This document shows positions 41,658 to 50,058 of a stretch of 63,772 nt of DNA, piece after piece; within the stretch, counting starts at the first letter, position 1, and each line of letters begins with the position of its first letter. This DNA is from Bacteroidota bacterium (lineage in GTDB: Bacteria; Bacteroidota; Bacteroidia; Chitinophagales; Chitinophagaceae): the NCBI GenBank assembly GCA_013286305.1, contig JABDFW010000006.1:7422-71193 (forward strand). Direction: 5' to 3'. Below the pieces are notes generated by a model, which worked only from the letters and a program-made list of their open reading frames with translations, did no database searches and was not told the DNA's origin. Made by a program: the position numbers and the translations under genes.

Positions 41658-42425
41658 TCACTCCCCGAATATTTTTTCTGCATTGGCGGTAGTTATCCTT
41701 GCTACTTCCTCTACGCTTACCTTTTTCACTTCCGCCAGCTTTGCTGCAATATATTGCAGGTAACTGCTCTCATTCCGTTTGCCCCTGAATGGTACCGGAG
41801 TTAAATAAGGCGCATCAGTTTCAAGCACTATATTATCCAAACTAATTTTTTCAATCGCTTCAGCAACGCCGGAATTTTTATAAGTAATTACGCCGCCGAT
41901 GCCAAGATAAAAGCCCATATCTATAACCTCTTTCGCCTGTTCGTAATTGCCGCTAAAGCAGTGAAATATCCCCTGCAACCCTTTATCAGCAAAAGGCTTT
42001 ACAGTATTTATCGTTTCCTGCATAGCATTACGGCAGTGGATAACAATAGGCATGTTGCGCTGTAATGCCCACTGCATTTGGGTTTCAAAGGCTTCATATT
42101 GCTGCGACGTAAATGTTTTATCCCAGTAAAAATCAAGGCCTATTTCACCAATAGCGGCAAATCTTCTTTTATTCAGCCATCCTTCCACAATAGTCAATTC
42201 GTCTTTATAAGTTGCCTTTACCGAGCATGGGTGCAGGCCCATCATTGCAAAGCACTTGCCCTTGTACTTTTCTTCAAAAGCAAGAATATCTTCTATTACT
42301 TCGCTGTCAATCGCTGGCAAATAAAACCTTTGTACCCCAATGCTTTCGGCACGCTGCATTACCTGGCTAATATCATCTTTAAATTCAGGGAGATATAGGT
42401 GGCAATGAGTATCAATTAAATACAT
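41658..42425 (-). CDS. TatD family metal-dependent hydrolase
   Basis: 255 residues from the ATG at 42425 (MYLIDTHCHLY). Metal ligands are the HxH of IDTHCHLY, Glu of AIGEIGLDFYWD, His of IVIHCRNA, His of IFHCFSG and Asp of LETDAPYLTP. These are the TatD/YcfH motifs of a TIM-barrel amidohydrolase acting as a 3'-5' DNA exonuclease in DNA repair or quality control. The ATG at 42431 is an alternative. The gene runs towards tRNA-Ser and may be co-transcribed with it. Confidence 0.94.
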   Translation of the reverse strand: MYLIDTHCHLYLPEFKDDISQVMQRAESIGVQRFYLPAIDSEVIEDILAFEEKYKGKCFAMMGLHPCSVKATYKDELTIVEGWLNKRRFAAIGEIGLDFYWDKTFTSQQYEAFETQMQWALQRNMPIVIHCRNAMQETINTVKPFADKGLQGIFHCFSGNYEQAKEVIDMGFYLGIGGVITYKNSGVAEAIEKISLDNIVLETDAPYLTPVPFRGKRNESSYLQYIAAKLAEVKKVSVEEVARITTANAEKIFGE

Positions 42426-42627
42426 ACACAATATTTGATGCGCAAAAATCGCTTAGAAACACTTAACCCAAATTTTTTTAACAATTGCTGAACGGCCGGG
42501 TAAAAATTAACGTAACGATAAACAGGGATTTTGGACTACGGCAACGGCGATTGCGATAATAAAGCACTTTAACAATAGGTACAAAGTATATAATATAATT
42601 TTGTAATAAATTTTAAGATATTTAAAC

Positions 42628-42658
42628 TTGGTTTAAATAATATTAAATATTACTTTTG
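42628..42658 (+). promoter_or_regulatory. Good Bacteroidota promoter without a downstream gene
   Basis: TTG (42628-42630) is followed after exactly 20 bases by TACTTTTG (42651-42658), a -33/-7 pair at preferred spacing. It points to the plus strand, where the next 1 kb holds only a minus-strand gene. Confidence 0.5.
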
Positions 42659-42665
42659 AATAGTT

Positions 42666-42732
42666 TTCATAGGGTACGGATTAAAAACGGGCTGAGGTTT
42701 CCACCTTGGCCTTTTTTTTGGGCTTTATCCGT
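42666..42732 (+). ncRNA. Candidate orphan small RNA with terminator hairpin
   Basis: Downstream of the promoter at 42628-42658. GGCTGAGGT (42690-42698) pairs with ACCTTGGCC (42703-42711) through nine pairs, two of them G:U, with loop TTCC, and is followed by eight T (42712-42719). An outer stem ACGGAT (42676-42681) with ATCCGT (42727-42732) could close a larger fold. A transcript would be about 55 nt if it stops at the T-run. It is the only structured feature I saw in the 400-bp gap. Confidence 0.35.
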
Positions 42733-42824
42733 TAGGCGGCTGTTAATGGCCGTGTAGACAAGATTTTGCACTTAAGTGGTTATTATTCAACGCCAAAGAG
42801 AAGCAAACCTGCTGTGCTTTCACA

Positions 42825-43451
42825 TTATTTTGTTCCAAGAGATTTAAATAAGAACCCTTTTTTGGTAAAATGGCCAAGTACACGGGGCAGGGCATAGCTT
42901 AACCGGTTAAAAGCCTTAGCGCTATCGTGAAAAACGATTATAGAACCTGGTTTTGCGTTGTTTACCACATTTTTAAGGCAGTCTTCAGGAGAAATAGAGG
43001 CATCAAAATCGCCGCTTAAAACATCCCACATAATTATTTTAAACTGGCTATCCCGCTGTAATACCTTTGACTGAAAACGTGTTATCCTTCCATAGGGTGG
43101 GCGAAACAATTGGGATTTGATATGCTTTGCCGCTTCCAAAATATTTTGCAGGTAAGCATCACCGTTCGTTTTCCAGCCATTTAAATGGTCGTTTGTATGA
43201 TTACCGGCTGCATGGCCTTCTTCCAAAATTCTTTTATAAACAGCAGCATTATTCACCACATTTTTTCCAATACAAAAAAAGGTTGCTTTGGCGTTGTACA
43301 GTTTCAATTGATCTAATACAAAGGCAGTGGCCGTTTCGTGCGGGCCATCGTCAAAAGTCAGGTACAATGTTTTATCCCCGGCAGGCATATCCCATACCAG
43401 TTTGGGATACATTTTTTTTAGCCACCACGGCGTTTTTACGAGATAAAACAT
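42825..43451 (-). CDS. Polysaccharide deacetylase family protein (NodB-like)
   Basis: 208 residues from the ATG at 43451 (MFYLVKTPWWLKKMYP); a longer frame to 43508 is less likely. The NodB motifs are LTFDDGPHE (Asp34-Asp35, residues 31-39), GNHTNDH (His85, His89) and LFRPPYGR; a C-terminal GSIIVFHDS carries the last motif His. It removes N-acetyl groups from a cell-wall or surface polysaccharide. The first helix may anchor it in the membrane. Stand-alone gene. Confidence 0.93.
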   Translation of the reverse strand: MFYLVKTPWWLKKMYPKLVWDMPAGDKTLYLTFDDGPHETATAFVLDQLKLYNAKATFFCIGKNVVNNAAVYKRILEEGHAAGNHTNDHLNGWKTNGDAYLQNILEAAKHIKSQLFRPPYGRITRFQSKVLQRDSQFKIIMWDVLSGDFDASISPEDCLKNVVNNAKPGSIIVFHDSAKAFNRLSYALPRVLGHFTKKGFLFKSLGTK

Positions 43452-43678
43452 GCTGTAAAAATAAGGGAAAGTAACGCCTTTTATCTTAGTAACCCGGCCG
43501 TGCAACAAGTGAACAGGCTTTTTATAAAAGGTATTTACGTGCTTTTTAAACTAACCGTTATACTTTGATGCTTACAAAGAATTTAGTGTATGTTTTACAC
43601 TTTTGTATTGTTTAATTAGTTTTATGTAGATTAGCTGTTAATTATTGGTTACCCTTTTTAATTTTTCTTCGATTGCTT

Positions 43679-44383
43679 ATGACAAGATATTCACGCCAAA
43701 CAAGGATATTGGTTGCTGTAGATTGCATAATTTTTGGATTTGACGGACAGGAACTAAAGCTGTTGCTGGTAAAGCGTCATATTGAGCCCGAAAAAGGCAA
43801 CTGGAGCCTGATGGGAGGCTTTGTAGAGCCCGGCGAAAGTTTTGAATGCGCTGCAACAAGGGTACTGAAAAAACTTACCGGTTTGGAGAATGTTTATATG
43901 GAACAATTGTCAGCATTTGGCGACCCCGAACGCGACCCTATAGAACGTACCGTTTCTGTTGCTTATTTCAGCCTTATAGATATTAATAAATATATTCAGC
44001 AAATAAGCCATGAGTACGATGCCGAATGGTTTCCTATAAAAAAATTACCTGAAGTAATATTCGATCACAGTAATATGATTGAAATGGCAAAAGAGAAGCT
44101 ACGCTATAAAGCGGCTTTTCACCCCATATTATTTGAGCTGCTGCCCGAAAAATTTACATTGCCCCAACTGCAAAGCCTGTATGAAGGTATTTATGACGCT
44201 GCCTTGGATAAGCGCAATTTCAGCAGGAAAATTTTATCTACAACCTTGTTGGTAAAACAAAAAGATAAAGAAAAAGAAACTTCAAAAAGGGGCGCATTTT
44301 ATTATAAACTTGACCGGAAAAAATACGCGAATAAATTTAATGCCTTTCTTAATTTTATTCCCAATCCTCAGAAATTAAAATAG
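43679..44383 (+). CDS. NrtR-like transcriptional regulator with inactive Nudix domain
   Basis: 234 residues from the ATG at 43679. The N-terminal Nudix fold (residues about 8-145) has a box GGFVEPGESFECAATRVLKKLTGL (residues 46-69). The REUxEE core reads RVLKKL, so all three acidic residues are lost and hydrolysis is unlikely. The C-terminal winged helix (about 150-225, FTLPQLQSLYEGIYDAALDKRNFSRKI) matches NrtR/AraR-type repressors, in which a dead Nudix domain senses a sugar or nucleotide ligand. Target genes are not obvious; no NAD or arabinose genes are adjacent. Confidence 0.88.
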   Translation: MTRYSRQTRILVAVDCIIFGFDGQELKLLLVKRHIEPEKGNWSLMGGFVEPGESFECAATRVLKKLTGLENVYMEQLSAFGDPERDPIERTVSVAYFSLIDINKYIQQISHEYDAEWFPIKKLPEVIFDHSNMIEMAKEKLRYKAAFHPILFELLPEKFTLPQLQSLYEGIYDAALDKRNFSRKILSTTLLVKQKDKEKETSKRGAFYYKLDRKKYANKFNAFLNFIPNPQKLK

Positions 44384-48304: not shown

Positions 48305-49018
48305 CTATCTTTTCAGCAAACGCTGGTGCACTATCCGCATTACCATATCCCGGTAATTACGGCTCATAGGCAACGACTTGCTGCCAACCTTTATCTCGTT
48401 GCCTTCTATTGCATTTATTTTTGCAGAGTTTACGAGGTACGACTGGTGTATCTTAATAAAGTCATCCACCGGCAACTGCGACTCAAGGCTCTTCATTGTA
48501 AGGTAGGCAATTATCTTTTTGGTGTCCGTATAAATACTCACATAGTTACCAATACTCTCCGCATAGAGAATATCACTCAGCTCAATTTTCTCTATCCGCT
48601 TATCGCTCTTGATAAAAATGTAGGTAGAGGGCAGGGTGTTGGTTGCCACATTCTTCATTTGGTAATAGTCCCTTGCCTTTTGAACAGCTTTAAGAAACCG
48701 GCTAAGGGCAAAAGGCTTTAGAAGATAATCTATAATATCCAGTTCGTACCCTTCCAGGGCATATTTGGGAAAAGCAGTGGTAAGTATCACCAGCGAGTTG
48801 ATATCCATTTTTTGCAGCAACTGCAGGCCCGATACCTTTGGCATTTCAATATCAAGAAATATAATATCGGGGGTATTGTTTTTTAAAAATGTTTCTGCCT
48901 GCATGGCATTCTCAAATTTGCCCTGCATATCTAAAAAGGGTACCTGCTCCACAAATTCATTTAGTATTTTACGGGCCACGGGTTCATCATCTATAATTAT
49001 GCAACTTAGTTTTTTCAT
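48305..49018 (-). CDS. LytTR family response regulator
   Basis: 237 residues. Receiver domain at 1-120: acidic pocket IIDDEP, phospho-Asp in DIIFLDIEMPKVSG, Lys in LLKPFALSRF. LytTR DNA-binding domain at about 135-235: FIKSDKRIEKIELSDILYAESIGNYVSIYT and DFIKIHQSYLVNSAKI. It starts 4 bp inside the kinase gene (49015-49018), so kinase and regulator are translationally coupled. Together they form a LytS/LytT-type two-component system. Confidence 0.95.
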   Translation of the reverse strand: MKKLSCIIIDDEPVARKILNEFVEQVPFLDMQGKFENAMQAETFLKNNTPDIIFLDIEMPKVSGLQLLQKMDINSLVILTTAFPKYALEGYELDIIDYLLKPFALSRFLKAVQKARDYYQMKNVATNTLPSTYIFIKSDKRIEKIELSDILYAESIGNYVSIYTDTKKIIAYLTMKSLESQLPVDDFIKIHQSYLVNSAKINAIEGNEIKVGSKSLPMSRNYRDMVMRIVHQRLLKR

Positions 49019-50058
49019 GGGGTAATGGTTAGGTGAACATGATAAATGCTGTGTTCCTTTTTAATATCAAGCTTGTAATGGTCTTTATATAAAAGTTCCA
49101 GCCGCCTAACCGCGTTATTAAGGCCAATGCCGCCCGATGCAGCTTCCGCTTCATCATACGTGTTATCGCAGGTAAAATCAATGCGGCCATCTTTCTCATT
49201 CAACTCTATGGCAATGGTATTAATGGCATTGTCACCCCTTGACGCATACTTAAAAGCATTCTCCACAAAAGCCATGAATATCAGGGGCGCTATTTTAACA
49301 GCCCCGTTTTTATAGTTCACCTTCAGGGCTACTTTCATATTATCGTTGCTGCGGGCTTTTTGCAGGGCTACATAGTTTTGCAGGTACTTTATTTCTTTTT
49401 CCAACTCTATCATATCCACATCTGCCTCGTACAGGTTGTACCGCAGCAGGTCTGAGAACTGCACCATGGTATCACGCGCCTGGCTGTTGTTCATATCAAT
49501 ATAACCATAAACAGTATTCAGGCCATTAAACAGGAAATGGGGGTTTATCTGCGAGCGCAGGTATTTCAGTTCCGTTTGCAACTGGTTTATCTGTATGTTC
49601 TTAACCTGCTCCCGTTGCTCCGACCATTTTTGCGTTATATACAACATTGATGAAATAACGGTACAGCAGAGTGCGTAAATAAAATTTTCCAGGAAACCGG
49701 CGCCCGGGCCTTCGGCCTTGCTGTGAAAAATAGCACCATGAATATATTGGCTATACTTGCCGGTAAAATATGTGTACAATACAATTAAAGTAATGAGGCC
49801 GGCAATGTACATGCGAAACCGTTTCTTTTCCAGCAGGTAAGGTATTAAAAACAAGTTGTTGGCTAATATCATAAACAAAAACAGCGTAAAATGCACCAGC
49901 AATTTGGGCAAGTTGGCCATGCAATTGGCGTTGTTTGAAAAGTCGGGTTTCTCAATCACCAGCGCCCCGATATATGCGAGTATAAAAAGTAAATAAATGG
50001 TATATCGTTTCAAAACATTGCCCTGCCGGGACTTTTTAGTAAGATAAATATATTTCAT
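49015..50058 (-). CDS. LytS-type sensor histidine kinase
   Basis: 347 residues from the ATG at 50058 (MKYIYLTKKSRQG); a longer frame starts at 50106. Four membrane helices lie at about 18-130 (YLLFILAYIGALVI; LVHFTLFLFMILANNLFLIPYL). A coiled-coil linker leads to the His_kinase domain with QINPHFLFNGLNTVYGYIDM, the phosphorylation site. The HATPase domain has VPPLI-type APLIFMAFVENAFKYA and GGIGLNN. No extracellular sensory domain is present, so the signal may be membrane-related. Confidence 0.93.
   Translation of the reverse strand: MKYIYLTKKSRQGNVLKRYTIYLLFILAYIGALVIEKPDFSNNANCMANLPKLLVHFTLFLFMILANNLFLIPYLLEKKRFRMYIAGLITLIVLYTYFTGKYSQYIHGAIFHSKAEGPGAGFLENFIYALCCTVISSMLYITQKWSEQREQVKNIQINQLQTELKYLRSQINPHFLFNGLNTVYGYIDMNNSQARDTMVQFSDLLRYNLYEADVDMIELEKEIKYLQNYVALQKARSNDNMKVALKVNYKNGAVKIAPLIFMAFVENAFKYASRGDNAINTIAIELNEKDGRIDFTCDNTYDEAEAASGGIGLNNAVRRLELLYKDHYKLDIKKEHSIYHVHLTITP

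Follow-up and report, generated by a model that had tools for sequence, protein, structure and literature searches.

To our knowledge, few Bacteroidota other than Bacteroides and Flavobacterium have had their regulatory RNAs characterized. The closest described systems are the GibS and FopS small RNAs (sRNAs) of Bacteroides thetaiotaomicron. GibS is reported to combine a conserved single-stranded 5' end with a terminator and to pair at start codons (PMC7366714), and FopS is described as a family of 14 members sharing a conserved motif, to which the RRM protein RbpB binds (PMC11697453). The latter report also describes the Bacteroidota model genus as being without classical sRNA chaperones (PMC11697453).

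The window (the whole stretch of DNA analyzed, 63,772 nucleotides of a Chitinophagaceae genome) contains a locus that, going by its sequence, is very probably the gene for an ~57-nt noncoding RNA of a multicopy Chitinophagaceae family. As described, FopS and GibS resemble this RNA in being paralogous, with several members per genome, and mostly intergenic; in having a housekeeping Bacteroidota promoter, a conserved 5' part, and an intrinsic terminator; and in occurring in genomes with RRM proteins and, by report, in a phage (PMC11697453). However, GibS has 145 nt and two extra hairpins (PMC7366714), compared to ~57 nt here, and FopS is reported within the Bacteroidaceae, whereas the present RNA was found in Chitinophagaceae; the likeness is one of description. 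Rfp18 of Flavobacterium psychrophilum, another conserved sRNA of the non-Bacteroides Bacteroidota with strong secondary structure, was considered as a match and set aside. By description, Rfp18 contains three or more stem-loops, and pairing is predicted to involve the third of them (PMC9723704). Outside the phylum, the cyanobacterial sRNA families Yfr1 and Yfr2 are similar in that each has a conserved motif and both are described from nearly all of a large lineage, but they differ in sequence. Yfr1 is also very short and ultraconserved. A short RNA whose 5' end hardly varies in a large environmental family offers an entry to posttranscriptional control in Bacteroidota, and the presence of paralogues under different promoters and on phages adds to its interest.

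The candidate gene is free-standing between two minus-strand genes (Table 1), which Pfam matches identify as tatD and a deacetylase gene, as the initial annotation had proposed. The same annotation had recognized a promoter pair at 20-bp spacing, and 20 bases do separate the TTG and TA of the two elements. It had also recognized a hairpin with a TTCC loop and T8 at a distance of 53 bases, which is the distance from the -7 element to the T-run. These features were confirmed in the sequence. The stem has 10 pairs (42689-42698 with 42703-42712), and T8 occupies 42712-42719. The statement that no plus-strand gene lies within 1 kb was marginally off, as a gene for a NUDIX/NrtR-type regulator (43673-44383, plus strand; NrtR_WHD, NUDIX, and AraR_C domains) starts ~950 bases downstream, adjoining the deacetylase gene on the opposite strand. 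Since TAnnTTTG occupies positions -12 to -5 in F. psychrophilum (PMC9723704), +1 is predicted at 42663. Transcription would start near this base from a housekeeping-type promoter and end at the hairpin and U-tract. Positions 42663-42722 contain no ATG or GTG, and TTG is confined to the terminator region.

Table 1. Positions in the window of the candidate sRNA gene, its predicted signals, and the flanking genes
Feature	Position	Strand	Basis or remark
-33 element TTGG	42628..42631	+	Bacteroidota housekeeping-type promoter, read from sequence
-7 element TACTTTTG (TAnnTTTG)	42651..42658	+	Sequence pattern
Predicted transcription start (A or following G)	42662..42663	+	Promoter placing and edge of conserved block
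Conserved 5' segment GTTTTCATAGGGTACGGATTAAAAAC	42663..42688	+	Proposed working part of the RNA
Terminator hairpin GGGCTGAGGT TTCC ACCTTGGCCT and T8	42689..42719	+	Folding, terminator scan
tatD (upstream neighbor; context; points away from the RNA)	41658..42431	-	Pfam TatD_DNase, E 1.8e-78
Polysaccharide deacetylase gene (downstream neighbor; context; convergent)	42825..43508	-	Pfam Polysacc_deac_1, E 3.2e-24

On both strands of the 63.8-kb window, the promoter pattern TTG-N17..21-TAnnTTTG occurs at four places, including the candidate, and a 9-pair stem with at least 5 G-C pairs directly before T7 occurs only at the sRNA locus. A generic scan of a 3-kb stretch gave no more terminators than chance (2 found versus 3.3 expected in shuffles), and the plus strand folds moderately better than shuffles (z -1.5 to -2.1), with weaker folding of the hairpin on the minus strand. 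It is conservation, rather than terminator count or folding, that raises the candidate above chance.

BLAST of positions 42560-42830 against 59 genomes, including that of the window, gave matches at E < 1e-6 exclusively within the window's family; two of the matching genomes, G006 and G035, had two places each. The matches take in the 5' segment together with all or most of the hairpin, and several also include the promoter. In an alignment of 20 sequences (the window and 19 BLAST matches), no base differs among the first 24 that follow the predicted start. In 301 of the 394 family genomes, a covariance model built from these 20 sequences found 1 to 11 matches (E <= 0.01); conservation in relatives, absence of which had been named beforehand as refuting the candidate, is thus borne out. 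The carriers are related soil and water bacteria, most of those examined having one or several copies. The 80 carrier records listed are mostly labeled Chitinophagaceae, Chitinophagales, or Bacteroidetes, and the genera among the matches listed include Niabella, Flavihumibacter, Ferruginibacter, Sediminibacterium, Flavisolibacter, and Parafilimonas. One metagenome-assembled genome labeled as the actinobacterium Williamsia (L149, JADCRZ010000047.1) carries a sequence of the window type (class A, below) and is probably misbinned or mislabeled.

In a phylum-wide sample, 30 of 345 genomes matched the covariance model, 11 of them within the family. The 19 matches elsewhere were weak (best E 1.7e-6) and, read singly, were mostly bare terminators; in L221 the resemblance is limited to the 5' end, and in L207 to part of that end. 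A broader model applied to the order matched 37 of 198 genomes, comprising 31 in the family and 6 weak matches (E 2.8e-6 to 5.4e-4). One of the six, in sister family genome G036, has a clear GGUUUUUCAUA 5' end, so the RNA family may extend slightly beyond the Chitinophagaceae. The broad model found six matches in the window's own genome; a weak second match within the window (49009-49065, 18 bits) was discarded, as it has no terminator on reading. No Rfam 15 family was matched at its gathering threshold; the best match had an E value of 0.74 and 20.8 bits, against a threshold of 59. Positions 42600-42760 had one chance-level match in a plasmid collection (E 0.003, Borrelia) and none in a collection of phage records. 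Among the papers listed in searches of the open literature, by topic and by 5'-end sequence words, none describes the RNA; the sequence words led to two unrelated papers. By these literature and Rfam searches the family is new, although its kind, paralogous sRNAs of Bacteroidota, is already known.

The window copy is assigned by its sequence and position to class A, the syntenic and usually single member of a paralogous family (two copies in G006 and five in G375). Among 168 class A loci, which are partly redundant and not all independent, the deacetylase BLAST cluster supplies the nearest downstream open reading frame (ORF) in 145, and one of the two upstream ORFs belongs to the tatD cluster in 133. 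Column by column, conservation sets in no more than one base from the predicted start, continues into the T-run, and then drops. Upstream peaks comprise a T-rich stretch at approximately -35, TAYCTTTA at approximately -12 to -5, and A-rich patches between and before them. The -7 element, counted within one base of the same position and with at most one mismatch in six fixed bases, is present in 104 of 152 distinct sequences (mean of shuffles, 8.3), and TTG at -37 to -31 is present in 111 of the 152 (mean of shuffles, 15.9). The sequence signals thus place a putative promoter belonging to the RNA itself at a fixed distance from the conserved 5' end.

Covariation of the stem, which the annotation had proposed to check, was mixed in the first 20 sequences: two-sided pair changes did not exceed those of shuffles (113/500), while the covariation score did (2/500). 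Among distinct hairpin stretches, 95 of 96 fold into a hairpin with a 4-base loop and two-sided pair changes, and pairing is kept through G-C, A-U, U-A, and C-G exchanges in the 95, percentages that hold partly by construction because the loops were located by folding. One stem position is A.A or A.C in 51 of the 95, and the loop is N-U-Y-N in all. Its compensatory changes mark the hairpin as a conserved, predicted Rho-independent terminator, which would serve mainly to end and protect the RNA. A pseudoknot between GGGUA of the 5' segment and UACCC of the hairpin was considered. Its columns are too invariant to test in the first 20-sequence alignment, and it was rejected, as class A members with other hairpins (GAAG/CTTC and GGAT/ATCC) still keep GGGUA.

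In 154 of 165 class A loci, the first ORF downstream is read from the opposite strand, which argues that class A is not a leader of the following gene. The same convergence could mean that the hairpin is only a bidirectional terminator, placed between the convergent deacetylase gene and the opposite strand, with no functional RNA; in the class A consensus, the minus-strand hairpin is indeed followed by GTTTTTA. We regard this as very unlikely, since it leaves unexplained why the bases ahead of the hairpin are invariant, why the -7 and -33 elements keep a fixed distance, and why sequence-related copies occur elsewhere, and 25 of 67 class B copies (below) have a downstream neighbor on the same strand. 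Bidirectional termination may nevertheless be a second role of the hairpin of an sRNA gene.

Membership in a multicopy family goes beyond the initial interpretation of the candidate. Fifteen genomes viewed in detail have several paralogues each with a conserved 5' segment, 94 copies in all: four of the class A type, 70 of class B, and the remainder of rarer forms. The class B 5' end is GGTTTTTCATAGGATATTGGA or a one-base variant of it, and rarer forms include GTTTTTTAAGGGTTTAGGGTTG, GTTTTAAAGGGTACGATCAAC, and TGTTTTTCATAGGTTA. Paralogues share the class A 5' segment in altered form, with differences between classes at several positions. In nearly all of them, the 5' end, near-invariant as GGUUUUUCAUAGGAUAUUGG, is followed by a hairpin and T-run of varying sequence; in a genus represented by G008 (g7), the 5' end GGUUUUUCAUAGGAUAU is kept and the hairpin is quite different. 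Copies also occur in tandem, as five at ~95-base spacing (L393, G026:C234:4696-5136) and three at 190-base spacing (L058, G261:C3:325854-326297). Some paralogues occupy the same place in several genomes, e.g., beside uvrC or ndk, as read from ORFs. Promoter, 5' segment, hairpin, and genomic position are strongly conserved across the Chitinophagaceae, and together with the paralogues they support the annotation's reading of the locus as a free-standing small RNA gene.

The promoters of the paralogues differ, with housekeeping, sigma-54-like, and GGTATTG half-site types. Among the 70 class B copies, the -7 element is at the right place in 42 (2.7 in shuffles), sigma-54-like GGCAY-N5-TTG is present in 6 (0.1 in shuffles), and the GGTATTG half-site is present in 12 (0.2 in shuffles). 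Copies with a sigma-54-like -24/-12 motif in the upstream 50 bases are L381, L382, L383, L369, L378, and L385. GGTATTG lies at approximately -42 to -33, near the -33 region, in L414, L404, L361, L400, L418, and others, and a GGTATTG/TACC dyad is weaker (7 versus 2.0 in shuffles, with a shuffle maximum of 6); the half-site is a possible shared operator of class B genes. Vibrio Qrr sRNAs are comparable in having several paralogues with a shared invariant core, and the 6 copies with a sigma-54-like promoter add to the likeness. Qrr sRNAs are ~100 nt, sigma-54 driven, and Hfq dependent. Of the class B copies, 42 have a downstream neighbor on the opposite strand and 25 have one on the same strand, and 9 of the 70 copies lie inside an ORF of at least 80 codons. 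A gene directly downstream on the same strand, as expected of a cis-acting leader or attenuator, was thus found in only 11 of 165 class A and 25 of 67 class B loci, and the frequency of opposite-strand neighbors in both classes excludes a leader role as a rule.

The reading that we favor, with moderate confidence, is a stand-alone, trans-acting sRNA of ~57 nt that resembles GibS and FopS, with its 5' end as the active part and with help from an RRM-type protein. The near-invariant 5' end would be the acting part. It is mostly unpaired by prediction in the window RNA, and a weak GUUUU/AAAAC stem is predicted to be possible in the class A and B consensus RNAs. Most likely, this largely unstructured end would meet partner RNAs, as in Bacteroides GibS and FopS, and an RRM-type RNA-binding protein probably helps it to pair. 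RRM_1 proteins, the kind of protein on which FopS relies, were found in all 10 genomes searched, with 3 to 9 matches each. In one genome, three RRM_1 matches lie within ~1 kb on alternating strands (G109:C1:784805-785856).

The reverse complement of the 5' end (CCCTATGAAAAC; TATCCTATGAAAAACC) resembles a start region, as in GibS and FopS, and start-codon targeting was therefore tested. In 1.2 Mb of G006, exact antisense matches of at least 11 bases occur at 40 places, 8 of them near a candidate ORF start, counts obtained without a shuffled control; the longest, of 15 bases, is not at an ORF start. By duplex energies, the class B 5' end was better at G006 gene starts than 12 of 12 shuffled versions. 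By mean energy, 2 of 60 shuffles were as good, and at non-TonB gene starts none of 120 was. Windows around internal AUGs did equally well (1 of 60 shuffles as good by mean), so the start pairing of class B points to CAU alone. Pairing of class A was weak, with 3 of 60 shuffles as good at gene starts and 8 of 60 at internal AUGs.

Across 117 genomes, the antisense 15-mer TAYCCTATGAAAAAR was no more frequent than its scrambled control (34 versus 35 places; reversed patterns, 13 and 15), nor was it more often at ORF starts (14 of 30 loci versus 15 of 30). So that the RNA genes would not be counted, starts with the sequences ATGAAAAC and ATGAAAAAC are left out of the pattern; one of the 34 places (L298 in G128) is a class B gene itself. 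No complementary 7-mer was outstanding in 1439 start regions under a high-order model (largest z 1.5). Under a lower-order model, 7-mer totals were raised (512 versus 410 and 792 versus 665) but 9-mers were not (28 versus 25 and 50 versus 55). Exact matches, duplex energies, 7-mers, the genome-wide pattern, and match positions thus gave no specific enrichment, and start-codon masking was set aside. A hint of SusC/TonB targeting (1 of 60 shuffles as good for 27 genes; 1 of 120 for class B with 67 plug genes alone) was also dropped, as the difference from other genes was reached by 21 of 120 shuffles. Specific start-codon or SusC targeting of the FopS type is therefore unsupported for this RNA. 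An antisense look-alike of a start codon (UUUUUCAU) need not mean start-codon targeting, and the pairing tests are compatible with an RNA that may have a few specific mRNA targets.

The main rival to pairing is that the RNA is a real sRNA whose invariant 5' segment would be a protein-binding site, so that the RNA acts as a sponge or scaffold rather than by pairing with mRNAs; the bound protein could be, for example, an RRM protein or a component of the machinery for transcription or translation. In class B orthologues, in paralogues, and in phage copies, some 17 to 22 bases at the 5' end stay near-invariant although the hairpin changes; the invariant stretch exceeds the length needed for a short seed, which counts against pairing, and the lack of specific complementarity at gene starts and the RRM proteins of all 10 genomes fit a bound protein as well. 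Yet FopS, as described, acts by pairing although its conserved motif is also long (PMC11697453), and between classes the 5' segment varies at several positions, a degree of change that one protein site would not necessarily accept. Protein binding accordingly appears somewhat unlikely, and because of the FopS analogy, RNA pairing is in our analysis the likelier mechanism of the 5' end, if only moderately so.

Among 2.9 million viral contigs searched, five stretches have the class B 5' end and one has the class A 5' end; the broad model finds a matching RNA in each of the six. Three of the five class B stretches represent one lineage with identical pieces (L476/L478/L475). In this lineage and in L479, the RNA copy lies <1 kb from a tyrosine-integrase-like gene in similar surrounding sequence, pointing to a possible role of the 5' module as a phage attachment or integration site as well as cargo. 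We also entertain, as a serious possibility that falls short of probable, that the RNA is a global riboregulator widespread in the Chitinophagaceae, with the 5' module UUUUUCAUAGGRUA common to orthologues, paralogues under several promoters, tandem arrays, and temperate phages, and with a mechanism other than FopS-type pairing at start codons. If so, phages would carry this module or integrate at it.

In one phage lineage, the RNA copy follows at ~10 bases the end of a gene for a Ro60 protein (TROVE and vWA domains; L476:4247-5695). A TROVE gene is also present in the genome of the window (G000:C24:35836-36597). These observations could make the RNA a Y-RNA-like partner of Ro60. However, TROVE genes are rare in the family, at 3 of 37 genomes searched, comprising 1 of 20 RNA carriers and 2 of 17 genomes without a covariance match, and this distribution led us to reject the partnership as barely credible. 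The RNA copies on phage contigs are located at L476:5706-5770, L479:10110-10174, L477:5815-5874, L478:2242-2300, and L480:12408-12469.
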